Of a DNA stretch of 64,000 bases, positions 46,263 through 64,000 are shown in pieces. The stretch's first letter is position 1; each line of letters starts with the position of its first letter. This DNA comes from Microbacterium paulum (lineage in GTDB: Bacteria > Actinomycetota > Actinomycetes > Actinomycetales > Microbacteriaceae). The notes beneath the pieces are model-generated. The model was not told where the DNA came from, made no database searches, and saw nothing but the letters and a program-made list of their open reading frames with translations. A program made the translations under genes and the position numbers. The stretch lies in contig NZ_JAAGRY010000004.1 of assembly GCF_015707995.1 (NCBI RefSeq), positions 1 through 64,000 on the forward strand. The letters run 5' to 3'.

Positions 46263-46273
46263 GCGGCAACGGG

Positions 46274-46312
46274 TTTGTCGACTCTCCGACTCAGACCAGA
46301 CCCCTTATGGAG
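46274..46312 (+). promoter_or_regulatory. Conjugation-regulon promoter element B8
   Basis: TTTGTCGAC (46274-46282), 19 bases, CCCTTATGGAG (46302-46312). It begins 11 bases after the wall-hydrolase stop and precedes the small membrane gene and the coupling ATPase. The downstream half is diverged but the spacing is exact. Confidence 0.6.
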
Positions 46313-46344
46313 TGAACGCGCATGCGCACAGCAAGGAGCACCAC

Positions 46345-46632
46345 ATGAACACCGACGACGACCGCACAATGCTGATCCTCACCCTCCCGATCCTCCTGCT
46401 CTTGATCGGTCCGGGGATCCTCGCCTCGTTCCTTCCCGACGTGCGCGGGGCGCTGCTGCAGGCTCGCCTGCTCGTCGACGAGAACGTGCTGATCCCGATC
46501 GCTGACGGGATCGGTCTGGATCTCGCACGTGTCATGATCCTGGCGGGCTTGCTGGTGGGGGTACTCACTCTTGGCGCGTGGGCGATCAAGCGACACCACG
46601 CCGCACGCGATGAGAAGGCGGGATCCCGCTGA
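46345..46632 (+). CDS. Two-TM membrane protein preceding the coupling ATPase (95 aa)
   Basis: MNTDDDRTMLILTLPILLLL gives TM1 (~8-25); TM2 is VMILAGLLVGVLTLGAWAI (~63-81), ending KRHHAARDEKAG. AAGGAG lies before the ATG. ATGA-type overlap with the next gene. Possibly an adaptor of the coupling protein; no family recognised. Confidence 0.65.
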   Translation: MNTDDDRTMLILTLPILLLLIGPGILASFLPDVRGALLQARLLVDENVLIPIADGIGLDLARVMILAGLLVGVLTLGAWAIKRHHAARDEKAGSR

Positions 46633-48749: not shown

Positions 48750-48804
48750 CTGACCGATGTCCAGTCTTCGAGTGGGACGACACGCTAGTCCCAAATGTCT
48801 AGGC

Positions 48805-48828
48805 GTAGTGCTACCGCTACCGCTACGC
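48805..48828 (+). repeat. Tandem CTACCG repeats at the RHH-gene promoter
   Basis: GTAGTG (48805-48810) then CTACCG, CTACCG, CTACGC (48811-48828), seven bases before the ATG of the ribbon-helix-helix gene. A related GCTACAGCTACCG lies at 49269-49281 beyond the gene. RHH repressors commonly bind such short tandem boxes. Confidence 0.5.
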
Positions 48829-48835
48829 TGGCGGC

Positions 48836-49072
48836 ATGGCCGAGGCTCAAGCCCGCAGGAAGCGGGGCACAATGATCGACCCTGTTCCCGTCGGGTACAA
48901 GATCGAGCGCTCACGCCGTTCCCGCGTCGAACAGCTTGCCAAGAACGCAGGCGTGTCTGGCGCAGTCATGCTCGAGTTCATCATCGACCAGATCCAGGTC
49001 ACCGATCAGGATCTCCCTGTCGGTTGGCCAGAGAACAGTCGCGACGAGGAGTTGCCTATCGAGATGGCCTAA
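48836..49072 (+). CDS. Ribbon-helix-helix-like DNA-binding protein (78 aa)
   Basis: MAEAQARRKRGTMIDPVPVG then helices RSRRSRVEQLAKNAGVSGAV and MLEFIIDQIQVTDQDL: a strand followed by two helices in RHH order. Acidic C-terminus. Probably a repressor of its own promoter and perhaps a copy-control or mobilisation accessory protein, since it lies between the coupling ATPase and the replication gene and is followed by a strong terminator. Confidence 0.65.
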   Translation: MAEAQARRKRGTMIDPVPVGYKIERSRRSRVEQLAKNAGVSGAVMLEFIIDQIQVTDQDLPVGWPENSRDEELPIEMA

Positions 49073-49078
49073 AAGCAA

Positions 49079-49104
49079 GGTCCCCCCGCCGAAGCGAGGG
49101 GACC
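49079..49104 (+). terminator. Hairpin terminator after the RHH gene
   Basis: GGTCCCC (49079-49085) pairs with GGGGACC (49098-49104); the loop is CCGCCGAAGCGA. Preceded by AAAAGCAA. It closes the RHH transcript eight bases after the stop. Confidence 0.75.
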
Positions 49105-49574
49105 TGGTGTCAGTGGTTTCGAACTGAAGTGTTTGGCGACGCGCAGTTCGAACTAGTTCCTTCAAGATCCGCGACTTGCAGGTCGCATCTCTTGTCGTAT
49201 GCGCCGGGAGGCAACCCGGGCCTTTGTTGCGCCCTCAACCAGCAGGAGGAGGTGACCCCATCGTAACTGCTACAGCTACCGTTTTCCAGCATCCGCGGCC
49301 GAAATCTGCAAGCAGTTTGCAAGAAAAATGCAAGCAGATTTCGCCTGAGAGCTCGTCTCTTGCTGGGGTGGCCCCTCAGCCCGTTTCATCTAGCGCGCCT
49401 GATGGGCTCTGCACCTGCCTGAGCAGACCCGCACGGAATCGCTCTAGCGCAGCTCCCCTGCCGTCGCCGTGCGTCGCTGGTGTGCACAGGTGGCGGCGTC
49501 CTCTGGCCTCGACCACGCCGGCCACAGGGCGTGGGTCGGGTTCGTCGGATGCTCCCTCGTCCCGGTCCTGGTCT
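49105..49574. other. Upstream region of the replication gene (~470 bases)
   Basis: No convincing gene. Contains the palindrome AGTTCGAACT (49145-49154) with a related TTTCGAACT at 49118-49126, the CTACCG-type site at 49269-49281 and the 42-bp element at 49301-49342. Likely origin or control region. Confidence 0.5.
49301..49342. repeat. 42-bp phased-repeat element, copy 1
   Basis: Bounded by GAAATCTGC (49301-49309) and its inverse GCAGATTTC (49334-49342). Inside, TGCAAG starts at 49307, 49318 and 49329, exactly 11 bp apart. A second 42-bp copy (53435-53476) and a shortened copy (53276-53306) lie on the other side of the rep-par-SRAP genes. Candidate origin iterons or partition site. Confidence 0.75.
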
Positions 49575-50927
49575 TTGCCCGTCGCAGACGGCGCCTACAG
49601 CCGAATCGTGGCTTGGCATTCGGCGACGTCGTGGCTGGCGCTGGTCCGCCGGATACTCTCATCGACGCGTGGAGAGCAGCTTCGGGGGCGAGTGAAGATC
49701 TCGGCCGACACAGTCCTCCGCGTCGCGCAGATGGACGCGCAGTGCGCCGACCGACTCACTGGCAGAGGCGTCACCACCTCGCACGCGTCTGTCGCCCACC
49801 AGCTAGGCATGTCGGACCGCACCGTTGGAGCAGCTCGCCGGCTGCTCGAGAAGCTCGGGCTCGCCGTCACCGTCGTGATGGGCAGGCACCTCTCCCCCGC
49901 CGAGCGCCGGCAGGCGAAGCGTTCCCACGGCGGTTACCAGGAAGCGGCAGCCTCCGTGCGTGCCATGACCATCCCCGAATCCGCGCGACCTGTGGAGAGT
50001 TTCCACCTACCGCGTAGCGGTTCAGTTCTTGAGGAACCTCACGATCAAAGGTGGTCACCAACGCGCGCCGGAGCGCACGGGACGGCCGCTCCGCGGCCGA
50101 AGCTGAGACGAAAGAGTCAATCTCGCCCCCAGTCCCCCAGATCGCCCCGCCCAATCGCACTGCAGGAGTTCGCCTGGAGGATCGCTCGCAACTACGGCCT
50201 GCACTCCCCCGGCCCCGCAACGACACCAGGAGCGCTCTTCGGCGGCCGGCACATCGGCCACCTGTGCAACATCCTCGAGCGCTACCACGTCACCCCTGAC
50301 CGCTACACCCTCGAGACGCTGCGCGCCGAGCTCGACGAGGCGCTGAGCGCGGCCCGGATCCGGCCACTCGAGAACGCAGACAAGCACGACCGGCTCGCGC
50401 ACTTCGCCTGGATGCTCGGGAAGCTCCAGGCGGCCACGAAGGGACAGACCCGCAGGGAGAAGCAGCTCCAAGACCACGAGAACCGGGTCAGGGCTCGGGC
50501 CGCGGCCGCGGAACAAGCACGGGCCCGTGCCGAAGAGGAAGCAGCAGTACTCGAGGAAGCCGAGACGGCGCGCGCAGCGTTCTTCGCCGAGCACCACCGC
50601 TCAGCACCCCGCCGGTCGAGCACGTCCCAGGCGGCTCGCGCCGCTGCCACCAAGGCGCTCGTGACCGCGCTCGTGGGATCGATCCCCCTCCACCAGCACA
50701 CCAGAGCTCTTCAGCAGCTGGTGGGCGACATCACGCTCCTCGAGAGAGCTCTCGTCGACGCCGACTGGACTCCCGCGCACGATCAGGTCGAACGCCGGGC
50801 GTGCTGGGAGCACGATGGCCAGTCGATCACGATCGAACTGTACGGCGAGCAGGCGAAGGTCATTACGACACCTCTCGCGATTCCCGAACCTGTCGCGGAG
50901 CTCCTCCTCCTTATCCAAATCCGCTAA
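49575..50927 (+). CDS. Putative plasmid replication protein with winged HTH
   Basis: The coding signal begins around DGAYSRIVAWHSATSWLALV. A TTG at 49575 or GTG at 49608 (or 49482) are possible starts, none with a clear ribosome site, so the start is uncertain. Key segment: TSHASVAHQLGMSDRTVGAA, then RRLLEKLGLAVTVVMGRHLS and PAERRQAKRSHGGYQ, the signature of a Microbacteriaceae-type plasmid Rep-like family. The C-terminal half holds an alanine-rich coiled coil (NRVRARAAAAEQARARAEEE). Position next to parAB and the phased repeats supports an initiator role. Confidence 0.65.
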   Translation: MPVADGAYSRIVAWHSATSWLALVRRILSSTRGEQLRGRVKISADTVLRVAQMDAQCADRLTGRGVTTSHASVAHQLGMSDRTVGAARRLLEKLGLAVTVVMGRHLSPAERRQAKRSHGGYQEAAASVRAMTIPESARPVESFHLPRSGSVLEEPHDQRWSPTRAGAHGTAAPRPKLRRKSQSRPQSPRSPRPIALQEFAWRIARNYGLHSPGPATTPGALFGGRHIGHLCNILERYHVTPDRYTLETLRAELDEALSAARIRPLENADKHDRLAHFAWMLGKLQAATKGQTRREKQLQDHENRVRARAAAAEQARARAEEEAAVLEEAETARAAFFAEHHRSAPRRSSTSQAARAAATKALVTALVGSIPLHQHTRALQQLVGDITLLERALVDADWTPAHDQVERRACWEHDGQSITIELYGEQAKVITTPLAIPEPVAELLLLIQIR

Positions 50928-50938
50928 TAACGTGATTA

Positions 50939-51059
50939 GCGGGAAGAACGGAAGACACGGTAATGCCGTGTATTGCGGGAAGAACGGAATACACGTTATA
51001 TTCGTTAAGCACGTTGATACGTGTATTGCCGGAAACGACGGTAATCCCGTCATTAACAC
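50939..51059. repeat. Partition-region repeats and hairpins upstream of parA
   Basis: GCGGGAAGAACGGAA occurs at 50939 and 50975 (36 bp apart), with a third related GCCGGAAACGACGG at 51028. Small inverted repeats: ACACGG-TAATG-CCGTGT (50955-50971), TACACGT...ACGTGTA (50990-51025) and GACGG-TAATC-CCGTC (51037-51051). TTGCGG (50973) and TATATT (50997) could form the parA promoter. Likely the centromere-like site bound by the RHH ParB-like protein. Confidence 0.6.
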
Positions 51060-51071
51060 TGGAGGATGAGA

Positions 51072-52070
51072 GTGGCTGCTCAAGGACATCTGATCGACCA
51101 CGCAGTGCTCAGCAGAGTCATCGCAGTCGAGAGCCTCAAGGGTGGCGTCGGTAAGACGACGCTCGTCGCAAACGTCGGCGGCTACTTCGCTCTCAACGAC
51201 AGGCGCGTGCTTCTCGTCGACCTGGACCCGCAGGGAAACCTCGAGGACGACCTCGGCTACTCCGGGGATGAACGCAACGACGAGGGGGAGTCGCTCGCCA
51301 AGGCGCTCATGTTCAGTGGGACCGTCGACGCGATCACCGAAGTGAGGCCGAACCTCGATGTGTGGGCCGGCGGGGGAGCATTACACAACGTGACCGCCGC
51401 GCTCAGCGCGGAGATGGGCCGCAACCCCGCGGCCGCGAAGCTCGCGCTGGCGCGCATTCTCGCTCCCGTCGCCGACGACTACGACTACATCTTCCTCGAC
51501 TGCCCCCCTGGCGATGGGGTTCTGCAGCTGGCCGCACTGTCGGCCGCGCGCTGGGTCCTGGTGCCGAGCAAGACCGATATGTCCAGCATCAAGGGCGTCG
51601 CGAAGGTCGCCGAGCGCATCGACCAGGTCCTCGACGTGAACCGGGGCATCGACCTCCTCGGCGTCGTCCTCACCGACGTCGGAACCGCCACCGCACGAAA
51701 GGACGGCACCGTAGTCGTCCGCAACGCGGAGAAGGACGCCCGTCACGCTCTCGACGAGATGTTCGGCGTCGGAGACGAAGACGGTATCGGCCGAGACATC
51801 GTCTTCCAGCGGACAGTCCGCCACAGCGAGGCCGTCGCCAGCCAGGCCCGCAACGCGGGCCTCCTGGCCTACGAGCTCGACGACCGCGCCAAGGAGGAGA
51901 CCAAGGCCGGCATCGCCTGGTGGAAGATCCGCAGCGGCGAGCTCAAGAACAAGCAGCTCACGAGCTCGACCGCCGGATCCGTCGCCGACGATCTGCACGC
52001 GATCGCCCTCGAAATCAACGCCCGCCTCGTCGAAGCCGAAGCAACGCAGCTGGAAGGAGCACACGCATGA
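51072..52070 (+). CDS. parA: ParA plasmid-partition ATPase
   Basis: 332 residues from the GTG at 51072; the ATG two codons earlier abuts GGAGG with no spacing, whereas the GTG has six bases, so the GTG is preferred. Deviant Walker A SLKGGVGKTTLVAN (~21-34), Walker A' VLLVDLDPQGN, Walker B YIFLDCPPGDG. N-terminal extension is short (type Ib-like). Segregates plasmid copies together with the RHH protein downstream, with which it overlaps by ATGA. Confidence 0.9.
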   Translation: MAAQGHLIDHAVLSRVIAVESLKGGVGKTTLVANVGGYFALNDRRVLLVDLDPQGNLEDDLGYSGDERNDEGESLAKALMFSGTVDAITEVRPNLDVWAGGGALHNVTAALSAEMGRNPAAAKLALARILAPVADDYDYIFLDCPPGDGVLQLAALSAARWVLVPSKTDMSSIKGVAKVAERIDQVLDVNRGIDLLGVVLTDVGTATARKDGTVVVRNAEKDARHALDEMFGVGDEDGIGRDIVFQRTVRHSEAVASQARNAGLLAYELDDRAKEETKAGIAWWKIRSGELKNKQLTSSTAGSVADDLHAIALEINARLVEAEATQLEGAHA

Positions 52071-52501
52071 GCGACGACAGCCGACGCACCATCCCCGGGC
52101 TCGCCCCCCGGAAGGTGAGCCCGAAGACCATGATCGCCCGCAACCGCCCCGCGCCGCCTATCGGGGCCGCCCCCGCGGAAGGCATCGAGGGGGCACCCAC
52201 CGCCTCTGAGCGCCCCACGGTCGCACCGGAAGCACCTCGGCGTGCCACGGCGCCCAGGAAGCCCGCCACAGCCCTCAAGAGCGAGCAGGGGCGTGTCAAC
52301 ACGTACATCGACGCCGACACTCGCTCCCGCGTCGTCGCGACGTACAAGGCGACCGCGCACCTCGAGGGAGACGAGTCCTTCAGCGCGTTCGTCGAGACCG
52401 CGCTGCTGAACGAGACCATCCGCCGCGAGCAGCTGCACAACGACGGAGAACCGTTCGCCGCCAGCGGCAAACTGCAGCGCGGTCGCCCCATGCGCGGCTG
52501 A
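52067..52501 (+). CDS. ParB-like centromere-binding protein (RHH type)
   Basis: 144 residues. N-terminal ~75 are disordered, basic and proline/alanine-rich (the expected ParA-contacting tail). The C-terminal ~65 form a ribbon-helix-helix: GRVNTYIDADTRSRVVATYK, then SFSAFVETALLNETIRREQL. Small RHH ParB proteins pair with short ParA types and bind repeats upstream of parA, as present here at 50,939-51,059. Confidence 0.8.
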   Translation: MSDDSRRTIPGLAPRKVSPKTMIARNRPAPPIGAAPAEGIEGAPTASERPTVAPEAPRRATAPRKPATALKSEQGRVNTYIDADTRSRVVATYKATAHLEGDESFSAFVETALLNETIRREQLHNDGEPFAASGKLQRGRPMRG

Positions 52502-52502
52502 G

Positions 52503-52538
52503 TACACGCACCAGCGAGCGTGTATCCGTGGGGGATAC
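52503..52538. promoter_or_regulatory. Overlapping inverted repeats before the SRAP gene
   Basis: TACACG (52503-52508) with CGTGTA (52519-52524), and GTATCC (52522-52527) with GGATAC (52533-52538). They share bases and end ten bases before the SRAP ATG, so they probably form an operator or the promoter region for that gene. Confidence 0.45.
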
Positions 52539-52547
52539 CCTCGCAGC

Positions 52548-53288
52548 ATGTGCGGCCGATACGCCCTGAGCTCAACGACCAACGAGCTGATCACAGCCTT
52601 CGTCGCCGCCGGCGGCCGCGCGGCAGACTGGCGCCCCACCTACTCGATCGCCCCGACAACGTCGGCGCCGATCGTGCGGACCGGCACGGACCAGGACCGC
52701 GACCCACGTGAGCTCACGCTGGCGCGATGGGACTGGCCCAAGCCCCCGAACAGACCGGCCGGTGGACCGATCATCAACGCGCGCATCGAGAAGCTCACGA
52801 GCCGCTTCTGGGTCGGTGCGTTCTCGCGGAGCCGATGCCTCGTGCCGATGTCTCCCGGGTACATCGAGTGGACGGGGCCCGCCGGCGACAAGCAGCCTCA
52901 CCTGATCTCCGGCGACGGCCTGTTGGCCGCGGCCGGGCTCACGTGGACGACGGAGATCTCCGGTGCCCGCGCGCGTGTGTTCGTCGTCGTCACCCGAGAA
53001 GCGCGCGACGCCTCCGGAGAAGTCCACGACCGGATGCCGGCGTTCGTCACACCAGACCTCTGGGATGCCTGGCTCGACCCGACCCCGCTCACCGTCGACG
53101 GCGATGCACGCGCCTCCGCCGGCAACCGGGAAGAACTGCTCGAGCTGCTCGATCACAGCTCGCAGGCCGTCGCCCGTACGATGCGAACCCGCCTGGTGAA
53201 CCGCAGCCTGAACAACAGCCGCACCGTCGACAAGCATGACGCGCGGATCCTCGATCCGATCACCGAGCCCACCGCGAAACCTGCTTGA
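52548..53288 (+). CDS. SRAP-family protein (YedK/HMCES-like)
   Basis: 246 residues. Begins MCGRYALS, so Met removal exposes the catalytic Cys2 of the SRAP family. Also present are PTYSIAPTTSAPIV, INARIEKLTSRFW, the GYIEW variant of GFYEW, and HDRMPAFVTPDLW with the conserved histidine. These proteins form a covalent thiazolidine crosslink with abasic sites in single-stranded DNA. On a conjugative plasmid it may shield transferred ssDNA. It lies right after parAB and its end overlaps a short phased-repeat element. Confidence 0.9.
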   Translation: MCGRYALSSTTNELITAFVAAGGRAADWRPTYSIAPTTSAPIVRTGTDQDRDPRELTLARWDWPKPPNRPAGGPIINARIEKLTSRFWVGAFSRSRCLVPMSPGYIEWTGPAGDKQPHLISGDGLLAAAGLTWTTEISGARARVFVVVTREARDASGEVHDRMPAFVTPDLWDAWLDPTPLTVDGDARASAGNREELLELLDHSSQAVARTMRTRLVNRSLNNSRTVDKHDARILDPITEPTAKPA

Positions 53289-53306
53289 AAAATGCAAGCA
53301 GCTCCC
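53276..53306. repeat. Phased-repeat element, shortened copy
   Basis: GAAACCTGC (53276-53284), then TGCTTGAAAAA (from 53282) and TGCAAGCAGCT (from 53293), 11 bp apart. One 11-bp unit shorter than the 42-bp elements, without the inverted right border. It overlaps the last codons of the SRAP gene. Confidence 0.6.
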
Positions 53307-53434
53307 GCCCCCGGATCGCGCACGGCTTGTGCGCGGAACGTGTACCGGGGGAGAGGGCCTGTTGGTCTGAGCCTCCGCATCTCTCTCGCGCCATAGCGCG
53401 GATCGAAGCTGCGGCTCAGCCTAACACGGGCGGC

Positions 53435-53476
53435 GAAACCTGCATGCAAAATACACGCAATTTGCAAGCACGTTTC
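53435..53476. repeat. 42-bp phased-repeat element, copy 2, abutting the transposon
   Basis: Left border GAAACCTGC (53435-53443), right border GCACGTTTC (53468-53476). The 11-bp units TGCATGCAAAA, TACACGCAATT and TGCAAGCACGT start at 53441, 53452 and 53463. Same total length and register as the element at 49301. Its last five bases are the transposon's target duplication GTTTC. Confidence 0.7.
53472..53476. repeat. Target-site duplication, left copy (GTTTC)
   Basis: Five bases directly before the left TGT end of the transposon; identical to 61594-61598 after the right end. Five-base duplications are the rule for Tn7-like and Tn5053/Tn402-type elements. Confidence 0.9.
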
Positions 53477-53571
53477 TGTCCGATGACAACGCATCTGTAG
53501 TTTCTGCCATCGATTCTGTGGTTGTGACAACCGACCTGTAGTTTCTGCCAATCCATCTGTAGTTTCTGCGG
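53477..53571 (+). repeat. Transposon left end: three TnsB-type binding repeats
   Basis: ATCTGTAGTTTCTGCCA at 53493-53509, ACCTGTAGTTTCTGCCA at 53534-53550, and ATCTGTAGTTTCTGCG at 53555-53570, all in the same orientation. The first belongs to the 33-bp terminal repeat starting TGTCC at 53477. Confidence 0.85.
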
Positions 53572-53682
53572 GCCCGTCGTCTGTCTGCGGGCGTGTCTCG
53601 TCGCCTGCGTGCCTGGTCGGTCGTACTCTGGCGGCGTCAGAGGACTCTCCAACTGAACAATCTCGTCGAGATCGGAGAGCAG

Positions 53683-54417
53683 ATGTCGTTGAAGCGCTGG
53701 GAACCCGCGGCTACGGTGAACGCGCCGCACGCTCAGATTGAGTACGTGCTTCGGGGCGTGGATCATCGCCGGGATTCTGTTGACGTGGTCGATGTGCAGT
53801 TCGAGGCCGTCGACAAGGTCCGGACCCCGAAGTCGTGGAAGCACAAGAAGAACTACATGGGCCAGTACTGGGCCGCCACGACCGGCGGGCATGTCTGGTT
53901 CGAGTCCTTGTATGAACGGGTCGCCCTCATGCAGATGGACCGTGACCCTGCTGTCGCTGCGATCGCGTCTCAGCCGATGTGGATTGACTGGGCGGGAACG
54001 CCTCGACGCCACGCGCCCGACTTCTTCGTCCGCTTCCGCAATGGATCGGCGGCGGTGATCGATGTGAAGCCTCTGCTGCGCATCAAGCCGGATGACGTCG
54101 AAGCATTCGATTGGACTTCGGCCCTGTGTGGCGAGCTGGGGTGGGACTACTTCGTTGTGCACGACATCAGTGAGAGCGAGGGCCGCAATCTTCGCTTCCT
54201 GTCCGGCTACCGGTATGACCGGTGGCGCGATTCGGCGAGTTTGGATGTGATGCGTGCCCACTCCGGTGAGTCCGCGCGGTTGTCGGAGTGGGCGAGCCTG
54301 CTGGAGGGTGTAGCGCCTCAGCCGCTGGGTGCGGTCTACTCGGCGTTGTGGTGGCGGGATCTGATCTTCGACTCGTCGCGGCGTTTGTCGTTAACGACGG
54401 TCGCGAAGGCGGCGTGA
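53683..54417 (+). CDS. tnsA: TnsA-like transposase endonuclease subunit
   Basis: 244 residues. The nuclease core reads WFESLYERVALMQMDRDPAV then IASQPMWIDW, HAPDFFVRFRNGSAAVIDVK. Catalytic-type residues are Glu74/Glu78, Asp113 (PDFF) and Lys129 (DVK), as in TnsA. TnsA cuts the 5' strands so that the element leaves by cut-and-paste. The ATG at 53683 has GGAGAG upstream and is preferred over an earlier GTG/ATG reading that would run into the end repeats. Presence of TnsA separates this element from copy-in Tn402-type relatives. Confidence 0.85.
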   Translation: MSLKRWEPAATVNAPHAQIEYVLRGVDHRRDSVDVVDVQFEAVDKVRTPKSWKHKKNYMGQYWAATTGGHVWFESLYERVALMQMDRDPAVAAIASQPMWIDWAGTPRRHAPDFFVRFRNGSAAVIDVKPLLRIKPDDVEAFDWTSALCGELGWDYFVVHDISESEGRNLRFLSGYRYDRWRDSASLDVMRAHSGESARLSEWASLLEGVAPQPLGAVYSALWWRDLIFDSSRRLSLTTVAKAA

Positions 54418-56405
54418 TCGTGCGGGTCGGCATCGGTGTGACGCTGACCTGGGATGAGGAGCGGTTCGTGATCATCGCGGCTGACTACCGGCATGTCACT
54501 CTCCGCTCTCTGGAGGGTGACTTCACGCGGATGGTCGATGCCGATGAGCTGGTCAGGTTGCCGAATGTCACCTGGCATGCGGACCGCACGGATTCGGCGA
54601 CAGGCTCCGCGGCCCGCGTCCTGGACGGACTCGACGATCACGAGAGACGCATTGTCGATGCGTGGGCTGAGCAGTTGGCTGTGGTCAAGGCCGCGGTCGA
54701 CGATGGACAACCGGCGAAGGTGTTCTTCGAGGACGTGCGCACGGCGATGTCGAAACTGACCTCCGTGACCTCGCTGGAGACGGTCCGCCGTAAGTTCCAC
54801 CGTTACTGCGCGGAAGGGGTCCTCGGTTTGGTGGACGCGCGGCACCTCAACCGAGGCAAGCGAGACATCGACTCTCGCATCGGCATGGCGCTGAGCGAAC
54901 TCGGCGAGAACGGGACGACGCGATCGTCGGGCACGACGAGCCGGACGCTCGACCGACTGCGTTGGATGCTGGAGGAGGACCACGGCGATGCCATCGACAT
55001 TCCCAGTCAGCGCACGCTGTACCGGATGGTCGCGGCCCATCCCACGGCCCGAAAGCTGAACGGCTCAGCGAAGTCACGTCAGTCGTCCGCCAACAAGCCC
55101 GGTAGGGCGTTCGGTGTGCACGGTTCGCTGCGACCGGGGGAGCACGTGCAGATCGATTCCACGGTGATCGACGTGCCATCGCGGCTGCTGGACGGTCGGC
55201 TGAACCGTGCGGAGCTGACGGTCATCCACGACGTCTCGTGCCGCTCCATCCTCGCGGGAGTCGTGCGGGCAGTCGCAACGAACTCCGCAGATCTCGCGGG
55301 CGTGCTCGCGCGGGCGTTGACTCCCTACGAGTTGCGGCCGCCCGGTGCCCGGGAGCAGCGGGAGCGGGTTGCGGCGACCTGGACTGGGCGGTTCATGATC
55401 GACCAGGAGCGACTGGACCACCACCGGCTCGCGCAGCCGTACATTTTCCCCGAGACGATCACGACTGACAATGGCAAGATCTACCGTTCCGAGGCATTCC
55501 GCCGGGGCTGTGAGCGAGCCGGGATCTCGCTCATCCATGCGGCGCACGAGACTGGCACCGACAAACCGCATGTCGAGAGCGGCTTCGACGCGATCAAAGA
55601 TGGCTTCGTGCAGTACTTGGAGGGCTTCACCGGTGGCAGCGTCGAGCGTCGCGGCAGAGACGAACCGACCGATAAGGCACTCGCTCTCGACCAGCTGCAG
55701 GAGTTGCTCGAGGACTGGATCGCGATCGAGTGGCAGAACCGACCGCACGCTGGTCTGTCCGATCCGATGCTGCCGGGTCGGGCGCTCACACCGAACGAGA
55801 TGTTCCGCGCCTACCGGCGGATCGCACCCGAGCTCCATGTCCCGTTCGGGCTGGACGAGTTCATCGGGTTCCTTCCTGCCAAGCGCTGCACGCTGCAGGA
55901 CTACGGCATCAACCATGCGCGGCGCGTGTACCGCTCGAACCGCCTCACCGAGCTCCGTGCTGCTGGAGCGGGCGGAGAGGGCGCCACCCGACCTTGCGTG
56001 GTCCGCTTCGACCCGCACAATCCACTGTTCGTGTGGGTGGAGCACGGTGACGAGTTCGTGCCCTTCCGGTGTGTTGGCGATCTCCTCGACGAGCCGATGG
56101 GCGGCGAGATCTGGCAAGCGGCCCACGCTGTTGACACGGCCGCGGACACGGCGACCCGTGAAGAGGCCGCATACCTTGCAGACCGGATGAAGCGCGCCCA
56201 GTGGGTGAGACCTGGCAAAGAGCGCAATCGCGCGGTCCGCGCGGCCGAGGTCGACCGCGATCCCATGCACATGACAGGTGTCTCGAAGACGATCGCCCGG
56301 GAGACGCCAACGACCGAGCCTGACGGAGACGAGGTCATCTGGGAACGCGGCGGCGGCTTCTCGCTGCTCACTGATGACGACGGAGTGTGGGAGCGGCTGA
56401 CATGA
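54414..56405 (+). CDS. tnsB: TnsB-like DDE transposase
   Basis: 663 residues from a GTG that overlaps the tnsA stop (GTGA). Helical N-terminal DNA-binding domains (VRRKFHRYCAEGVLGLVDAR, PSQRTLYRMVAAHP) precede the rve core with Asp248 (HVQIDSTVID), Asp352 (TTDNGKIYRS) and Glu388 (HVESGFDAI). The last pair is spaced 35 residues apart, the classic DD35E pattern. A Mu-type beta barrel follows (VRFDPHNPLFVWVEHGDEFV). Joins the 3' ends to target DNA. Confidence 0.92.
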   Translation: MIVRVGIGVTLTWDEERFVIIAADYRHVTLRSLEGDFTRMVDADELVRLPNVTWHADRTDSATGSAARVLDGLDDHERRIVDAWAEQLAVVKAAVDDGQPAKVFFEDVRTAMSKLTSVTSLETVRRKFHRYCAEGVLGLVDARHLNRGKRDIDSRIGMALSELGENGTTRSSGTTSRTLDRLRWMLEEDHGDAIDIPSQRTLYRMVAAHPTARKLNGSAKSRQSSANKPGRAFGVHGSLRPGEHVQIDSTVIDVPSRLLDGRLNRAELTVIHDVSCRSILAGVVRAVATNSADLAGVLARALTPYELRPPGAREQRERVAATWTGRFMIDQERLDHHRLAQPYIFPETITTDNGKIYRSEAFRRGCERAGISLIHAAHETGTDKPHVESGFDAIKDGFVQYLEGFTGGSVERRGRDEPTDKALALDQLQELLEDWIAIEWQNRPHAGLSDPMLPGRALTPNEMFRAYRRIAPELHVPFGLDEFIGFLPAKRCTLQDYGINHARRVYRSNRLTELRAAGAGGEGATRPCVVRFDPHNPLFVWVEHGDEFVPFRCVGDLLDEPMGGEIWQAAHAVDTAADTATREEAAYLADRMKRAQWVRPGKERNRAVRAAEVDRDPMHMTGVSKTIARETPTTEPDGDEVIWERGGGFSLLTDDDGVWERLT

Positions 56406-57391
56406 CGCAGGCCATCAGTACGCGGGAGGGTTGGTCCGCGTTCGTCAGCGAAAGCTTGGATAGGCCGCTTCCGATCACGCGCGCCGAGCTGGATGCGATG
56501 TCGCCGGGCGACCGTGCGATGAACCGTGAAGCGCGCAAGCAGTTCATGATTCGCGGCCCGGTGGTCAACACGGCACAGTTCGCGGCGATCGAGACGGAGA
56601 TCCTGCGACGGTTGATGCTCAATCAGTACAAGTCGCACGGCAAGCTCGGCGTGATCGTGTCGGGGGAGCCGAACATCGGCAAGACCACCACTGTCTCGCA
56701 CATTGCTCGCAGGTTCGAACGCCGCCGACGCGACATCGGACGGGCCAGCGGCGGCAACTCGATCCCGGTGATCTACGTGTCAGTGCCACCGTCGTGCACC
56801 CCGAAACTGATGCTCGGAGAGTTCGCCCACTTCCTCGGCCTCCCGGTCCGCGCGCACTACAACACGGGAGAGCTTATGAACACCGTCGCCAGCGTGATCG
56901 CAGCCTGCGGGACCGAGCTGATCATCGTCGATGAGATCCACAACATCAACCAGAAGTACAAGCAGATGGGCGAAGCGTCCGACACACTCAAACAACTGTC
57001 AGAGAAGTGCCCCGGCACGTTCGTCTACGCCGGAGTCGACGTCGAAGCCAGCGGGCTGCTCGACGGCACCCGCGGACGGCAGATCAGCAGCCGATTCGAC
57101 ATCCTGAACCTGCACAAGTTCGAGAACACCGGCAGAGGCGAGGCGGGATGGGCCGATCTCCTCGTCGCGGTCGAGAGCTCCCTCGGACTCATCGACCAGC
57201 ATCCCGAGGCGATTCTGCGCCACGTGAGCCATCTCCACGCCGCGACGGGTGGCGTGATCGGAGACCTCACTGGGATGGTGCACATGCTCGCGATGGAGGC
57301 CATCGATAATGGCACCGAACGCCTCGACTTGGACACCGTCTTCGGCACTGTTCCGGTTGCCGCCCCTGACATGGTGCCCGTGGCGACGTGA
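56402..57391 (+). CDS. tnsC: TnsC/TniB-like AAA+ transposition regulator
   Basis: 329 residues. Walker A SGEPNIGKTTT (87-97), Walker B TELIIVDEIHNI, sensor-1-like GTFVYAGVDVEASGLLDGT and an arginine pair RGRQISSRFD. TnsC couples target selection by TniQ to TnsAB activation by forming ATP-dependent filaments on DNA. Start overlaps tnsB by ATGA. Confidence 0.9.
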   Translation: MTQAISTREGWSAFVSESLDRPLPITRAELDAMSPGDRAMNREARKQFMIRGPVVNTAQFAAIETEILRRLMLNQYKSHGKLGVIVSGEPNIGKTTTVSHIARRFERRRRDIGRASGGNSIPVIYVSVPPSCTPKLMLGEFAHFLGLPVRAHYNTGELMNTVASVIAACGTELIIVDEIHNINQKYKQMGEASDTLKQLSEKCPGTFVYAGVDVEASGLLDGTRGRQISSRFDILNLHKFENTGRGEAGWADLLVAVESSLGLIDQHPEAILRHVSHLHAATGGVIGDLTGMVHMLAMEAIDNGTERLDLDTVFGTVPVAAPDMVPVAT

Positions 57392-58452
57392 AGACGCCGA
57401 CGCCGGCGGGGAACGTGCGCCGGCTACCAGTGATGGTGCAGCCACTCGCCGCCGAGACGATCACGGGATTCCTCGGCAGGCTCGCCACCGCGAACGCGCT
57501 CACTCCCCGCGATCTTCGGCTCCACGTCACGGACCTCGCTGGAATGTCGCCCTCGCATCCCAACCTCGAGCGCGCTGCAACGTGGGCGGAACGGCTCGGC
57601 GGTCTCAAACCCGGGCACTTCGCGGACGATGCCCGCAGGAACGCGATGTACGTCCGCTGCCAGCACTACGCCTGGCAACCCACGCTCTGCAGGCGATGCG
57701 GGTATAACCAGGCGGCGCGAACTGCCTGCCTGCGGTGCGCGAGAGGTGAGCAGTCGTCGGTGTGCAGCAGGGGTGGCGCGGTCTGCAACCGCCATCAGCG
57801 CTGGCACATCGGTGGCGCCGATATCGACCTCACACCGTTCCAGGAGTACGCCCAGGCTGAGCGTTGCCTGTCCGGCACGCTTTGGAAGCGCGGCATCGGA
57901 CTCACTACCGGCGAGCTGCAACTGGCCGCTTCTCTCATTCGGTACTGGTCGATCGAGGAGCGCGCAGAGGGGAGAATCGCCGATCGAATGGCAACGATCG
58001 GGATCGACTCGCTCGATGCCGACAGCGTGTTCCTCGTGGCCTACCCCGAGATCGTGCGCTTGACCACGATCCTCACGGACCTGTCCTTCGCGAGCTATTT
58101 GCTGAGCCCTCGATTCAGCCTTGCGGAGCAGGTGTGGGCTCTTGAGGCCGCGGTTGTCACCGTCATGAACGGCTGCGCGACTCCACGGCTTCATCAGGTC
58201 GCGGAACGGATCGTGGCGCGAGGGAAGATGGCTGTGGAGACCGCGTTCGGCATGCGCCAGAACGCGAGCAACAACCGCCCCGCGACCCTCGAGAAGTCAC
58301 TCGTCGCATCGTCCCAGCGCCACCGAAGCTGCCTACTCAGACACCTAAGCACCGTCAGGATTCAGATCCTCCCCTACGAGCCCGGAGTCGCCGCGCCGCG
58401 GAACCGCGTCCTGGTGCGCCGGCATCCTCTGCCGGATGTCGTCGAGGTATAG
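57388..58452 (+). CDS. tniQ: TniQ/TnsD-like target-selection protein
   Basis: 354 residues from a GTG overlapping tnsC. LPVMVQPLAAETITGFLGRL is the TniQ opening, with the zinc region CRRCGYNQAARTACLRC and GGAVCNRHQRWH. The C-terminal ~150 residues are helical and would contact the target. It is the only target selector in the element, so it alone should set insertion preference; the present insertion lies at the edge of a plasmid repeat element. Confidence 0.88.
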   Translation: MKTPTPAGNVRRLPVMVQPLAAETITGFLGRLATANALTPRDLRLHVTDLAGMSPSHPNLERAATWAERLGGLKPGHFADDARRNAMYVRCQHYAWQPTLCRRCGYNQAARTACLRCARGEQSSVCSRGGAVCNRHQRWHIGGADIDLTPFQEYAQAERCLSGTLWKRGIGLTTGELQLAASLIRYWSIEERAEGRIADRMATIGIDSLDADSVFLVAYPEIVRLTTILTDLSFASYLLSPRFSLAEQVWALEAAVVTVMNGCATPRLHQVAERIVARGKMAVETAFGMRQNASNNRPATLEKSLVASSQRHRSCLLRHLSTVRIQILPYEPGVAAPRNRVLVRRHPLPDVVEV

Positions 58453-58516
58453 GTGACGCGTAGGCAAGTCGTGGACGGCCAGCGGCGCCCACGCCAAGCG
58501 ATGGTTGAATTGCCGA

Positions 58517-59566
58517 ATGGTTCAGCAGACGCCGACGACTCGCCTTCGGAAGCTTGCGCCGGGGGACCGGGTGGCGGTGCTGTCGCCGTCCTTCGCGGCG
58601 CCCGGCTTCGCTCCGGCCGTGCATGAGCAGGCCATGCGGAGGATTCAGACTGATCTGGGCCTCATCCCGGTCGAGTTCCCGACGACACGTGAGTTAGGGG
58701 CATCGCCCGAGGCTCGAGCTGCCGACCTCAACGCCGCGTTCGCAGATCGGACCATCAGCGCGATCTTTGCGAGCGTCGGCGGTGACGACCAGATCACCGT
58801 GATCCCTCACCTCGATCCGGGGGTGGTGATCGAGAACCCGAAGCCGTTCTTCGGCTACAGCGACAATACGAACATCCTCAACTGGTTGTGGCAGCTGGGT
58901 GTTCCGGGGTTCTACGGCGGGTCCACCCAGGTCCATCTCGGTCCCGGGCCGGGCATCGACCCAGTCCATTCGGCAAGCCTGCGCGCCGCGCTCTTCGACG
59001 GCCGGGAGGTCGAGATCACCGAGCCGGGGGAATCGGAGGACTTCGGACCCGACTGGCTCTCGCCGGCAGCTCTCCTGGAGTTCGGTCGGCGCGAGCCCAC
59101 GGCGCCGTGGGTCTGGGCTGGCCCGCACCGTGTGGTCGAGGGAAGAACCTGGGGCGGATGCTTCGAGGTCGTGGATCAAATCACGGTCGCAGGGAGGGTG
59201 CCCTCGCTGGACGCGCTTCGCGGTGGGGTTCTGATCCTCGAGTCCAGCGAGGAAGTTCCGCCCGCGGTTCTGATCGGGCGCTGGCTGCGTGCCCTAGGCG
59301 AGCGTGGTGTGCTGGGCGCCGTCGATGCGGTGGTCGTTGCCCGACCGCCGGTGAGCTCGCACGAGTTGGTTCCCGACGATGCAACCCGTGACCGTCTGCG
59401 TCGGGAGCAACGAGAGGTGGTCATCGCCGAGGTCGGCCGATACAACCCTGAGGCGGTGGTGTGCGTGGGGCCACCGTTCGGTCACACCCGACCCCAATGG
59501 ATCATCCCGTACGGCGGTCTGATGCGACTCGACTCGACGGCACGGACAGTCACGGCGGTGTACTGA
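58517..59566 (+). CDS. MccF-type serine peptidase (S66 family)
   Basis: 349 residues. Opening LAPGDRVAVLSPSFAAPG, nucleophile Ser115 in FFGYSDNTNIL, acid in LILESSEEVPP (~240-250), and histidine in VGPPFGHTRPQWIIPYG (~325). S66 includes LD-carboxypeptidases and MccF, which cleaves microcin C-like peptide-nucleotides; the W-rich substrate loop (APWVWAGPHRVVEGRTWGG) fits MccF better. The ATG at 58517 is chosen over an upstream TTG. First cargo gene; a self-immunity or resistance role is likely. Confidence 0.85.
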   Translation: MVQQTPTTRLRKLAPGDRVAVLSPSFAAPGFAPAVHEQAMRRIQTDLGLIPVEFPTTRELGASPEARAADLNAAFADRTISAIFASVGGDDQITVIPHLDPGVVIENPKPFFGYSDNTNILNWLWQLGVPGFYGGSTQVHLGPGPGIDPVHSASLRAALFDGREVEITEPGESEDFGPDWLSPAALLEFGRREPTAPWVWAGPHRVVEGRTWGGCFEVVDQITVAGRVPSLDALRGGVLILESSEEVPPAVLIGRWLRALGERGVLGAVDAVVVARPPVSSHELVPDDATRDRLRREQREVVIAEVGRYNPEAVVCVGPPFGHTRPQWIIPYGGLMRLDSTARTVTAVY

Positions 59567-59569
59567 GGC

Positions 59570-60532
59570 ATGGCGAGGGAAGAAGCGCCGACTCGACGTT
59601 ACGTCGTCGCCGCGATGTTCAGCGAGATGACCGTTGGCGCTGAGATCGACCGCAAGCAATGGCCGGCGCATGTCACAGTCGTGTCGAACTTCACCACTGA
59701 CGTGCCTGTCGAAACGCTCGCGGCTGGAATGCGCCGCGTTCTCGCCGTAGAACGGCCCCTACCGTTCGAGTTCGGTGACAGCGCGCTGTTCGGTCCGAAT
59801 CGAGATATTCCAGTCAGGTTGGTGCGATCGGAGTCGATGGCGAAGCTGCACGACGAGTTGGTCACCGAACTGACTTCGGTTGGAGTCGTGGCTGACGAGC
59901 CCGCGTACTGGCTCACGGGCTACCGACCTCATGTGACTCTCGCGCCATCGGTTGGGGCGGACCTCACCCCGCTCCGATACTTTCGTAGCATCGTGATCGC
60001 TCGCTTGGATGGCGGGCGCGCAACTGTTGTAGACATCGTGAAGATTCTCGCCGACGCCCCGGCGCCGACGGATGTCGATGTGCGCCGCGCGACCCTCGGT
60101 GATGCTGCCGGCCTGGCGCAGCTCAAGGTCGAGTGGGCCAACCTCGATCAATCGCCGAGCAGCCTGGCGATGGATGAGTTCGGAACCGCCCTCGCGAACT
60201 GGATCCGCCGTCAGGGTGATTCCCTGGTGGTGGAAGTCGCCGTCGCTGACGAGCGTGTCGTCGGAATGGCGTGGATGGTGCTTTTCGAGCGAGTGCCCGA
60301 CTTTTCCGATCGCCAAAGGCTGACGGCCGACATCCAGAGCGTCTACGTCAGTCCTGCCCATCGGGGTCGGGGCGTCGGACGTCGCCTCGTGGATGCGCTT
60401 TGCGCCGCCGCGGACACGCGAGGGGTGGCGAGGACGCTTGTGGCGGCCAGCGCTCGATCTCTATCTCTGTACAACCGTTCGGGCTTCGAAGAGTCGCCGC
60501 TCTTGCTCCAGCGGCGATCGGATCGCGCATAG
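59570..60532 (+). CDS. 2H phosphoesterase-GNAT acetyltransferase fusion
   Basis: 320 residues in two domains. Residues 1-155 form a 2',5' RNA ligase-like 2H fold with the two required motifs, His34-Val-Thr36 (WPAHVTVVSN) and His121-Val-Thr123 (GYRPHVTLAP). Residues ~165-320 are a GNAT acetyltransferase with the acetyl-CoA loop SVYVSPAHRGRGVGRRLVDA. The fusion would join hydrolysis of a phosphodiester or cyclic phosphate to N-acetylation. Three bases after the MccF-type gene. GNAT enzymes (MccE type) inactivate aminoacyl-nucleotide toxins, so the pair may detoxify one compound. Confidence 0.85.
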   Translation: MAREEAPTRRYVVAAMFSEMTVGAEIDRKQWPAHVTVVSNFTTDVPVETLAAGMRRVLAVERPLPFEFGDSALFGPNRDIPVRLVRSESMAKLHDELVTELTSVGVVADEPAYWLTGYRPHVTLAPSVGADLTPLRYFRSIVIARLDGGRATVVDIVKILADAPAPTDVDVRRATLGDAAGLAQLKVEWANLDQSPSSLAMDEFGTALANWIRRQGDSLVVEVAVADERVVGMAWMVLFERVPDFSDRQRLTADIQSVYVSPAHRGRGVGRRLVDALCAAADTRGVARTLVAASARSLSLYNRSGFEESPLLLQRRSDRA

Positions 60533-60561
60533 CTCAGAGCACGCCGATCGGAGACTTAACT

Positions 60562-61428
60562 GTGCTCAACCGTCCTGAAGTCGTCTGCATCTGTGGCTCG
60601 GCGCGGTTCGTCGCGGAAATGCGCAAGGCGAACGGTGAGCTGACACTTAGCGGCATCATCGTCCTCGCGCCGGGTGAGATGAACGGAACCGTTGGCGACG
60701 ATCAGAAGGCAGTGCTCGACGCGCTCCACCTACGCAAGATCGACCTGTCTGATCGCGTGCTCGTGGTCAATCCCGGCGGCTACATCGGCGAATCCACGAG
60801 CAGGGAGATCGACTACGCTCGCGCCACCGGAAAGCCGGTCTCGTTCACCGATTCCGCCTGGCGGTGGCAGGATGGCGGGATGAACGAGCAGATCATCGAG
60901 GCAGGTGCGCGCCTTGTCGGAATGCCTGTCCCAGCACTTGAGTTCGCGGCGACGACTGGCGGCACTGTCGACCTTGGTCGGGACGAGATCGGCGACTTCG
61001 TGCTGTTCATCTACCCACGCACGGGCCGTCCCGATCAGTTGGAGCCTGATGACTGGGCACTCATTCCGGGTGCGAAGGGGTGCACGGCAGAGTCGTGTGA
61101 GTTTCGTGACCTCGCCGCCGAGTTCTCCCGAGTTGGCCTGTCGATCTACGGGTTGTCGACGCAAGACACTGTGTATCAGCAGGAGGCCGTTGAGCGCTTA
61201 CACCTGCCCTACCCTTTGCTGTCCGATCCGAACGTGCAACTCGGGCGAGCGCTTGGGATCGAGACGTTCAAGTATTCCGGCACGGAACTCTACAAGCGAT
61301 GCACCCTCGTCGTGCGCGACCGGGTCATCGTCATGGCGCAACTCGAGATCGCCGATGCGGCGTCGCACCCCCGCGAACTCCTCGCGGCTCTCAGCACGCC
61401 TACCGGGCACCCGCATCGGAGTGCCTAG
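60562..61428 (+). CDS. Deoxyribosyltransferase-like domain fused to peroxiredoxin
   Basis: 288 residues from a GTG with GGAGAC upstream. Residues 1-~105 resemble nucleoside 2-deoxyribosyltransferase/DUF4406 folds (VVCICGSARFVAEMRKANGE, RVLVVNPGGYIGESTSREID). Residues ~125-285 form a thioredoxin-fold peroxiredoxin with GAKGCTAESCEFRDLAAEFS, where the first Cys is in the peroxidatic position of BCP/AhpC-type enzymes, then YPLLSDPNVQLGRALGIETF. Last gene of the cargo. The combination is unusual; a role in nucleotide-analogue or oxidative detoxification is inference. Confidence 0.75.
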   Translation: MLNRPEVVCICGSARFVAEMRKANGELTLSGIIVLAPGEMNGTVGDDQKAVLDALHLRKIDLSDRVLVVNPGGYIGESTSREIDYARATGKPVSFTDSAWRWQDGGMNEQIIEAGARLVGMPVPALEFAATTGGTVDLGRDEIGDFVLFIYPRTGRPDQLEPDDWALIPGAKGCTAESCEFRDLAAEFSRVGLSIYGLSTQDTVYQQEAVERLHLPYPLLSDPNVQLGRALGIETFKYSGTELYKRCTLVVRDRVIVMAQLEIADAASHPRELLAALSTPTGHPHRSA

Positions 61429-61461
61429 AGGCAAGCGCATCGGCGCCATAGGGGACACAAC

Positions 61462-61593
61462 TGCGGCGAACTACAGGTGACCTGGCAAACCGCTGCCGAC
61501 CGAACGGGCTTCGCCGCAATCGCACCCGCGACTTCGTCGGGCTTACGACCTCAACATCGCTGGCAGAAACTACAGATGCGGTGTCATCGGACA
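61462..61593 (-). repeat. Transposon right end: two TnsB-type binding repeats
   Basis: TGGCAGAAACTACAGATG (61561-61578), the inverse of the left repeat, lies in the 33-bp terminal repeat that ends ...CATCGGACA at 61593. A diverged copy TGCGGCGAACTACAGGTG lies at 61462-61479. Three sites left and two right give the asymmetry usual for Tn7-like ends. Confidence 0.8.
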
Positions 61594-61598
61594 GTTTC
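61594..61598. repeat. Target-site duplication, right copy (GTTTC)
   Basis: Directly follows the right transposon end and matches 53472-53476. Removing the transposon and one copy rejoins the 42-bp element's border to GCGCCCCGTGG. Confidence 0.9.
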
Positions 61599-61629
61599 GC
61601 GCCCCGTGGTGCTGACTCAGTGGCCGACT

Positions 61630-61669
61630 CCGCTACGCGCGGGCACCCGTCGGAGCCCGCGCGTAGCGG
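61630..61669. terminator. Perfect 15-bp hairpin between transposon and the 61681 gene
   Basis: CCGCTACGCGCGGGC (61630-61644) and its exact inverse GCCCGCGCGTAGCGG (61655-61669) around a ten-base loop. It lies 11 bases beyond the stop of the leftward gene; probably its terminator, although no T-run follows. Confidence 0.65.
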
Positions 61670-61680
61670 TCGAAATGTCG

Positions 61681-62325: not shown

Positions 62326-62399
62326 GCTCGTCGCACCTTCTCTCGGTAGTGAGTTCTTGTGCGTCAGAGGCTACATCGAAGTAATCATCACTTACAAAC

Positions 62400-62415: not shown

Positions 62416-62497
62416 ACTCGGGAATGCGTCTCGGGGCGACCGAAGTCGTGCGCCTGCGATCACCGAGTATCGACGTGGTGGCCCCGGCCGTGAGAGG

Positions 62498-62842
62498 TCA
62501 GCGCCGACGCCGGCTGCCCCCGTAGTAGTGGCGGATGGCGGCGGTGACGGCATCGTCCTTCGTCAGACGGACCCCGCTCTCCGCAGCCTCTTCGCGGGCA
62601 TTGTCGATCAGCTCGAGCACATCAGGCGGCAGGCGGAACGTGGCCGGCTTCTTGTCGACCTTCTTCACGTTGTACGGGCCGCGGGGCTTTCCCTGTCTGG
62701 GGGACTTGGCCGCCGCCGCCGTCGTCGGCGTCGTGGTCTCCGTCTCCTCGTCAGGGACGGCTTCCAGCGACCGAGGAGCTGTCTCGGGCTTGCTGAAGGC
62801 GGCGCTCCAGTCCGTCTTCTTCTGCGACCTCGGCTGTGTCAT
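62498..62842 (-). CDS. RHH ParB-like protein, second partition pair (114 aa)
   Basis: N-terminal ~65 residues disordered (TETTTPTTAAAAKSPRQGKP). The C-terminal ribbon-helix-helix reads KKPATFRLPPDVLELIDNAR then EEAAESGVRLTKDDAVTAAI and a basic end. Same plan as the protein at 52,067 though not closely similar. ATGA overlap with the upstream ParA-like gene. Confidence 0.75.
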   Translation of the reverse strand: MTQPRSQKKTDWSAAFSKPETAPRSLEAVPDEETETTTPTTAAAAKSPRQGKPRGPYNVKKVDKKPATFRLPPDVLELIDNAREEAAESGVRLTKDDAVTAAIRHYYGGSRRRR

Positions 62843-63498
62843 CGCGAGCCTCCAGTAAGGATCTCTTCGAGGACATCCGGGTAGACGCCGAGATTCGTGG
62901 GGGCCGTGCCGAACGCCTGTGAGTAGAGGAGCTGGAAGGGCACGTTGACGTCGAGCACGTGCAGCCCCTCAACATCGCCCTCCATCTGCTTGAGCTGCTC
63001 CCAGGCCTCCCGGAAGCTGATCGTGTTCGGCTTGGTGCGGGTGAAGAGGATCGACAGCTGGACCGGCTTGATGCTCGCCACCTCGGCCGCGGCTTGCAGC
63101 GTCGGAGTCAGCCGAGTCGCCTCCGACGGGGTCGCCCCGATCGGCATCAGCAGGTGGTCGGTAACCATCAGCGCCTGGCGAAGCGTGGTCGAGTCGTTGC
63201 CGGTGTCGATGATCAGGTGGCCCTCGAATTGCATCTCACGGACGCGCTTGGCCAGCAGCTGGGAGGGCAGGTAGACGACGTTCACCTCGGCCGGCCACAC
63301 CTCGCCGGCATACTCCGACCACTCGAAGCTGGTTCCGTTCGCGCTGTCCGCGTCGACGAGCAGGACCCGCTGCCCCGTGCGCTGCACCAACGCCAACGCC
63401 AACATGATCGAGGTCGTGGACCGCGCGACCCCGCCCTTGAGGTTTCCCACCGTCAGTCGCAACGGCGTCTGCAACGGCGTCTTCTTCTCAGTCATCAT
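62839..63498 (-). CDS. ParA-family ATPase with altered P-loop, second partition pair
   Basis: 219 residues. LTVGNLKGGVARSTTSIMLA (~15-34) keeps the ParA signature lysine (KGG) but the P-loop G-K-T is replaced by A-R-S. Walker A' VLLVDADSANG and Walker B-like HLIIDTGNDS are present. MMTEKKTP at 63498 follows GGAGCGAAAG. The loss of the P-loop lysine suggests weak or regulated ATP hydrolysis. Works with the RHH protein downstream, separate from the parAB at 51-52.5 kb. Confidence 0.8.
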   Translation of the reverse strand: MMTEKKTPLQTPLRLTVGNLKGGVARSTTSIMLALALVQRTGQRVLLVDADSANGTSFEWSEYAGEVWPAEVNVVYLPSQLLAKRVREMQFEGHLIIDTGNDSTTLRQALMVTDHLLMPIGATPSEATRLTPTLQAAAEVASIKPVQLSILFTRTKPNTISFREAWEQLKQMEGDVEGLHVLDVNVPFQLLYSQAFGTAPTNLGVYPDVLEEILTGGSR

Positions 63499-63511
63499 CT
63501 TTCGCTCCTCG

Positions 63512-63991
63512 CTACGACCTGCGGCCGCCGCGTCGACGTCGTTCATCCGCGAGCCGTTGCTTCTCTGCTGCGCGTCTCTGCTCGGCCGGGCTCAAGGCTC
63601 TAGTCCTCCGGGTGCGGCCGCTGTTCTTGTTCTGCTCGTACTCGGGTGTCTTTGCTTCGGAAGTGACGGTGAGCACCACGCCGGTGATCGATTCACGGTC
63701 GACATCGAGGTTCAGATACCGGTTCTTCGACTCTGTGCGCAGCCAGTCCAGGGCGCTGCCGCCGGCCTCGTTCACGCGCTGCAGCATGGTGGAGGCGTTG
63801 TAGGTGTTGACCTCCATCACCCGACCGTTGGCGAATGTCAAGGTGGCGCGCACCTTCTTCTGGCTGTCTCTGGCCTGCCCCTTCGCAGCATTGCGGATCT
63901 GCTTCACGATCTCCGCATCCGCCAGGGACCGGCCCTTGGCGGTCTTCCCCTTCGGCAGTCGCAGCTCGATCTGGCGACCGCCCTCGGCCAT
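63512..63991 (-). CDS. Hypothetical basic protein (159 aa, possibly incomplete at the 5' end)
   Basis: MAEGGRQIELRLPKGKTAKG then a DUF-like domain with strands (VRATLTFANGRVMEVNTYNA, RYLNLDVDRESITGVVLTVT) and a very basic C-tail (SPAEQRRAAEKQRLADERRR). It lies 13 bases upstream of the second ParA and may form one operon with it. The start at 63991 is 10 bases from the window end, so a ribosome site or longer N-terminus cannot be checked. Confidence 0.6.
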   Translation of the reverse strand: MAEGGRQIELRLPKGKTAKGRSLADAEIVKQIRNAAKGQARDSQKKVRATLTFANGRVMEVNTYNASTMLQRVNEAGGSALDWLRTESKNRYLNLDVDRESITGVVLTVTSEAKTPEYEQNKNSGRTRRTRALSPAEQRRAAEKQRLADERRRRGGRRS

Positions 63992-64000
63992 GTATGTCGT

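Follow-up and report, generated by a model that had tools for sequence, protein, structure and literature searches.

The window analyzed here, a 64,000-nucleotide stretch of Microbacterium paulum DNA (NZ_JAAGRY010000004.1, positions 1 to 64,000) that is contained in the 85,120-base contig C4, carries two 42-bp elements with 11-bp phased repeats, denoted E1 and E2, among plasmid maintenance genes. Which protein binds these elements, and what do they mark? In the original prediction, they were construed as either origin iterons or a partition site bound cooperatively by a single protein, with Rep, the adjacent ParB1 and a ribbon-helix-helix (RHH) protein encoded at 48836 as the candidate binders. 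Sequence comparison leads us to predict, with a probability of about 0.62, that the elements belong to a series of arrays distributed over the plasmid and bound by RHH114, a small RHH-like protein encoded beyond an adjacent transposon, as operator/centromere sites. The notion that the elements are of the partition-site type and bound cooperatively by a single protein fits our observations; the origin iteron interpretation appears less likely, and the binder is likely none of the three candidates. The arrays are most likely docking sites of one small plasmid-encoded regulator that would tie inheritance to copying. If so, partition would be connected to replication control, at the sequence level and in a testable manner, in a family of actinobacterial plasmids that includes some recorded as linear. 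The comparison also suggests joint replacement of a regulator and the sites dispersed over its plasmid, with implications for changes in plasmid incompatibility.

Structure of the phased elements

E1 (49301..49342) and E2 (53435..53476), both on the forward strand, have the positions and letters originally described. Each consists of three TGCNNGCA units with an 11-bp period, the middle one degenerate, between GAAA and TTTC borders. In E1, TGCAAG recurs exactly at 49307, 49318 and 49329; the units of E2 are, in order, TGCATGCA, TACACGCA and TGCAAGCA. The shortened copy reported at 53276 is also present in the unit scan: E3 (53276..53306, forward strand) comprises two units and overlaps the stop codon of the gene for an SRAP-domain protein (52548..53288, forward strand).

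A pattern drawn post hoc from both E1 and E2, with up to 3 mismatches allowed, matches only the E1 and E2 places and yields 0 matches in 100 dinucleotide shuffles. The 11-bp phasing of both copies is far above chance, with a lag-11 self-match of z 7.5 for E1 and z 6.1 for E2, against 95th percentiles of the best z of 3.0 and 3.1, respectively, in mononucleotide shuffles, the null model of all lag tests reported here. Among 150 random control windows (45-170 bp, from three plasmids), 0-2 reached z >=6 when lags that are multiples of 3 are disregarded; some control windows with z >=6 in the Clavibacter plasmid pCSL1 and in Curtobacterium, with lags of 11 and 8, may be arrays themselves.

Arrays at three recurrent places

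The two copies were thought to bracket the rep-parAB-SRAP block, which is only partly the case. E1 is located in the initial codons of the rep-like gene (49260..50927, forward strand, with a probable ATC start after a Shine-Dalgarno sequence), starting 41 bp past this ATC and with the first unit at +47 from its first base, so that the copies do not stand outside the whole block. Further array matches are found elsewhere on the contig, at 65999-66021, in the promoter of the operon that encodes RHH114, and at 75189-75220; contig G000:C113 also contains array matches, with two arrays in tandem.

Among the relatives, arrays recur at three places, namely, near the beginning of rep, in the promoter region of the RHH114 operon, of which P0011 is the first gene, and beside a conserved hairpin. 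The 11-bp register, on which the original prediction hinged, is kept in related plasmids, with arrays in genomes G241, G273, G077, G089 and G182; degenerate copies among these are E1 of G273 and E2 of G089. At the rep start, units are located at +47 and +69 in C4 and in G182, at +69 in G077, at +47 and +58 in G089, and at +47 in G241 (counted by eye). Array matches upstream of P0011 occur in six lineages, placing a repeat array at the operon promoter, as it is in G182.

The fixed place of E1 in rep, the iteron-like phasing, and the presence of Rep homologs (40-50% identity) in the array plasmids of G241, G273, G089 and G077 would all fit a scheme in which replication is initiated and limited by Rep bound to the arrays, with extra copies titrating Rep. 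We consider such Rep-bound origin iterons unlikely because arrays are also found at a promoter ~16 kb from rep, as well as in the vicinity of accessory genes. In G273, where the rep leader is altered, E1 is degraded and RHH78, the protein encoded at 48836, was not found, the E3, E2 and operon-promoter arrays persist. The 8-bp repeats described below also speak against Rep: they track a different type of ParB-like protein, and in M. sediminis they also precede parA1, at a distance from the start of rep.

The arrays next to accessory-looking genes, at L120 1450-1517 (G000:C113), L119 144-221 (G182:C21) and L073 7188-7220, lie upstream of these genes and near a common CTGACAGTTACAAACTA-like sequence (by eye).

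Co-occurrence of the arrays with candidate binders

A sequence-only array profile (33 positions, 14 sequences), applied with strict filters to 295 genomes of the genus at a cut-off of E up to 0.01, which admits about three chance genomes, detected arrays in 15 genomes. Nine of these, G089 and eight with similar-looking stretches, have a common operon-promoter match. RHH114 is present in 16 of the 295 genomes, 14 of which have arrays; with nine near-identical copies counted once, there are 6 cases with both array and RHH114, 1 with an array only and 2 with RHH114 only. In a 299-genome sample of the family, RHH114 was detected in 1 genome besides the one that contains the window; 3 records of the plasmid collection also have it. 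A first, crude matrix had placed the loci L043-L046 above three shuffles (best scores 10.3 to 19.5); these loci carry other TGC-rich repeats and were not counted as arrays by either the unit scan or the profile (best E 0.31).

The arrays could, in principle, be the parS sites of the adjacent pair ParAB1, consisting of ParA1 (51066..52070) and ParB1 (52067..52501), both on the forward strand. The arrays are close to parAB1, and ParB1 belongs to a family of centromere-binding proteins, Pfam CB_ParB_C, which we take to have been built on the ParB of the Leifsonia plasmid pCXC100. This assignment is nevertheless very unlikely, given that G089 and G077 keep the arrays and no clear relative of ParB1 was found in these two genomes, and that parA1 has repeats of its own. 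Those repeats (50926..51060, forward strand), the probable ParB1 site, have a 9-bp period, with z 8.3 at lag 9 and z 9.7 at lag 18 in C4, and are replaced by 8-bp repeats in M. sediminis. Among nine loci around ParA1 homologs, three (G241, G089 and G077) contain arrays and six do not; the ParA1 of G294 (50%) is closer than that of G077 (40%), yet G294 has no array.

RHH78 (P0004; 48836..49072, forward strand), which is RHH-like by eye and has no Pfam family, adjoins rep and E1 and is present in five array genomes, a co-occurrence above chance (collapsed p 4e-5) that could make it the binder. That it plays this part is extremely doubtful: RHH78 is found in 23 of the 295 genomes, 18 of which lack an array match, and only 5 of the 15 array genomes carry it. 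Furthermore, its relative in Curtobacterium (57% identity, L047) is accompanied by no profile match with E up to 1 and, in the unit scan, only by a GC-rich two-unit match.

Possible exchange of the repeats along with the small DNA-binding protein

RHH114 shares its operon with P0010, a helix-turn-helix (HTH)-like protein (63512..64000 in the window and up to 64333 of the contig, reverse strand), and hence co-occurrence cannot tell the two apart. P0010 adjoins the array-bearing promoter and its association with the arrays equals that of RHH114, with 14 of the 15 P0010-carrying genomes of the genus containing arrays, so that P0010 could be envisaged as the binder. Plasmids in which the repeats are of a different type discriminate between the two proteins. 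In the Curtobacterium plasmids p1 and pC1b, P0010 is retained at 57% identity, with two conservative changes in the HTH stretch, whereas no RHH114 was detected and its place is taken by a different small ParB-like protein that contains ITDNTLIRVAVDLL (putative RHH, by eye). In these plasmids, 8-bp repeats occupy the equivalent places: all three in p1, the operon promoter (z 10.3), rep (z 6.3) and the hairpin flank (z 12.3), and, in pC1b, the promoter (z 7.8) and the hairpin flank (z 12.4), the two places examined. Because the P0010 HTH is nearly unchanged in plasmids with repeats of 8 bp rather than 11 bp, binding by P0010 appears quite unlikely, and we favor RHH114.

Two further plasmids are compatible with the same relationship. 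In M. sediminis, ParB1 is of the other ParB-like type (by eye) and 8-bp repeats are located upstream of parA1 (z 13.2), with RHH114 and 11-bp arrays kept elsewhere. The Clavibacter plasmid pCSL1 encodes a distant RHH114 relative (32-36%) and contains 11-bp GCAA/TTGC repeats at all three places: the promoter (z 6.9), rep (z 8.1) and both sides of the hairpin (left, z 8.7; right, z 4.3). Together with the 9-bp repeats of C4, these comparisons indicate that both the period and the sequence of the repeats vary with the small DNA-binding protein, irrespective of place. The arrays are probably RHH114 operator/centromere sites because 8-bp repeats stand where the ParB-like protein is different.

A possible mode of action of RHH114

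RHH114 (P0012; 62498..62842, reverse strand) is encoded in the operon P0011-P0010-ParA2-RHH114, which also includes P0011 (C4 64326-65975) and ParA2 (62839..63546, reverse strand), a Walker ATPase that, like ParA1, the other neighboring ATPase, matches Pfam AAA_31. The operon-promoter array overlaps a TTGCAA -35 element, which is followed by a TAATAT -10 element (by eye). The RHH114 sequence contains the pattern PATFRLP and two predicted helices, and its AlphaFold model has two helices after an extended stretch (mean pLDDT, the confidence score of the model, 68; block means 79-90 over residues 71-110 and 72 at 61-70).

Under the RHH114 scenario, one dimer of the protein would bind each TGCNNGCA unit, and the 11-bp spacing would put neighboring dimers on one face of the DNA, favoring joint binding. 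Because the array overlaps the -35 element of RHH114's own operon, self-repression is suggested; the array just past the rep start would allow RHH114 to hold down rep expression, and two more arrays flank the conserved hairpin downstream of the parAB-SRAP genes. The arrays in rep and at the operon promoter are a candidate omega-type regulon, after the pSM19035 protein discussed below, with putative copy-number control. Where ParA2 is present, namely, in C4, G241, G273 and pCSL1, the bound arrays might double as centromere sites.

Several observations weigh against this assignment. No ParA2 was identified beside RHH114 in G089, in G077 or in the searched stretches of G182, so that the partition role would not be general and regulation of the operon and rep is better supported than partition. 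Taken alone, the C4 promoter array, with one unit and a half, reaches only z 2.0 at lag 11. The designation of both RHH114 and its Curtobacterium replacement as RHH proteins is a tentative reading of a sequence pattern by eye: for RHH114, Foldseek gave no match at E 0.001 and VIA-align no Z above 2.8, and the Pfam matches were a weak one to VapB in 2 of 6 members (best E 0.024) and one to BrnA in 1 of 6 (E 0.6). The co-occurrence of P0010 with the arrays is as strong as that of RHH114. Finally, G215 has an array-like match without RHH114, and G175 has RHH114-like remnants with no array in the searched stretches.

A broader and rather doubtful extension of the RHH114 scenario would be that one RHH protein coordinates partition, expression of rep and a structured DNA or RNA element through the three places, that protein and sites are exchanged as a unit, from 11-bp to 8-bp repeats, and that the hairpin is an RHH-controlled start of replication or of a transcript. 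The hairpin (53364..53427), located between E3 and E2, was identified by comparison of five plasmids, in which 92.9% of 85 cells are paired, compared with 14-43% when the sequences are slid, and two pairs are changed on both sides; the covariation score, with five sequences, was matched by 24 of 500 shuffles and is suggestive only. An Rfam search of positions 46000-64000 with E up to 1 gave no match at the elements or the hairpin; the two matches obtained (50681-50733 and 48402-48435) were both under their own gathering scores.

Comparison with known partition systems

One parallel among the systems compared is the omega protein, the RHH ParB of the Streptococcus plasmid pSM19035, which is reported to control both partition and copy number via arrays at several promoters (PMC9499535). 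As in that system, a single RHH protein would here have separate arrays over its own partition and copy-number promoters. The differences are also apparent: pSM19035 has 7-bp WATCACW repeats, 7-10 in a row (PMC9499535), whereas here the units are 11-bp TGCNNGCA, two or three per array, and the arrays include one internal to rep and two next to the hairpin. Contiguous 7-bp repeats of the pSM19035 type were not seen at the elements, where the period is 11. In architecture and logic, the arrangement resembles omega control by analogy, with a putative protein/site variant that differs in repeat length, protein and the rep-internal array.

For the type Ib ParB of pCXC100, the site is described as direct repeats only, upstream of the par operon (PMC5016525); this system would correspond to ParB1 and the 9-bp repeats, not to the 42-bp elements. 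ParR proteins are usually of the RHH type, and the ParR of plasmid R1 requires a minimum of two 11-bp repeats (PMC9426499); its partner is the actin-like ParM, whereas here the neighboring ATPase is a Walker ParA or is absent. The Streptomyces linear plasmid SCP1 also combines two partition systems on one actinobacterial plasmid, but, unlike the case here, its dual ParABS has HTH CTPase ParBs and 13- and 19-bp inverted repeats (PMC13245405). A limited search of open-licence PubMed Central papers gave no account of this array set.

The Tn7-like transposon adjacent to E2

E2 abuts exactly the start of a Tn7-like transposon (53477..61593, forward strand; 8.1 kb) with TGTCCGATGACA ends, which encodes TnsA-like and TnsB-like proteins and TniB and has a weak TniQ match. 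The target duplication GTTTC, at 53472-53476 and 61594-61598, is the last 5 bp of E2. This contact raises the possibility that E2 represents an end or a target site of the transposon rather than a plasmid element, which is almost certainly not the case: G241 and G273 have an intact E2 with no transposon next to it, and two related transposons are inserted elsewhere. Targeting of par-like arrays by the transposon was likewise considered and dismissed, as the two related transposons for which both ends could be read lie elsewhere (in G148, with the duplication GAGGC, and in pYJNG, with no duplication seen); in G165 and G173, the two transposon ends were not both found. With a single insertion at an array (n=1), we claim no target preference. 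Possible cargo open reading frames are located at 58505-60532.

Additional observations on the plasmid family

A Clavibacter relative of the rep-like gene is annotated as 'replication protein'. In this and other plasmids, inspection by eye of the RHH78-rep intergenic region (49073-49260) shows a hairpin resembling a terminator, followed by an inverted repeat whose loop is GTTTGGCGAC-like and by a second hairpin (GC); a Shine-Dalgarno sequence and an ATC, ATA or ATG start come next. These structures may reflect antisense-RNA or leader control of rep; the loop is, we presume, akin to IncI-type loops. Genome G273 contains, in the region L118 4300-8540, a second Rep-like gene (24% to an open reading frame of C4), with GTGCAATCTGGTGGCG repeats and a further ParA-like gene nearby (by eye). 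This genome may have exchanged its replicon for another, and its old rep seems to be decaying.

A near-identical plasmid region with P0011, P0010 and two RHH114-like genes (L109-L114, L116, L117 and L074) is present in several Microbacterium genomes, and in G154, such a region lies inside a 3.1-Mb contig. Relatives of P0011/P0010 are encoded on plasmids recorded as linear (CP064874, CP088078 and NC_022599) and on plasmids recorded as circular (CP045853 and NC_010408), and the family may be partly linear. A 692-bp inverted repeat with identical copies is located close to the ends of contig G089:C2, and the tips of C4 share only a 27-bp match (89%) in the terminal-repeat comparison.

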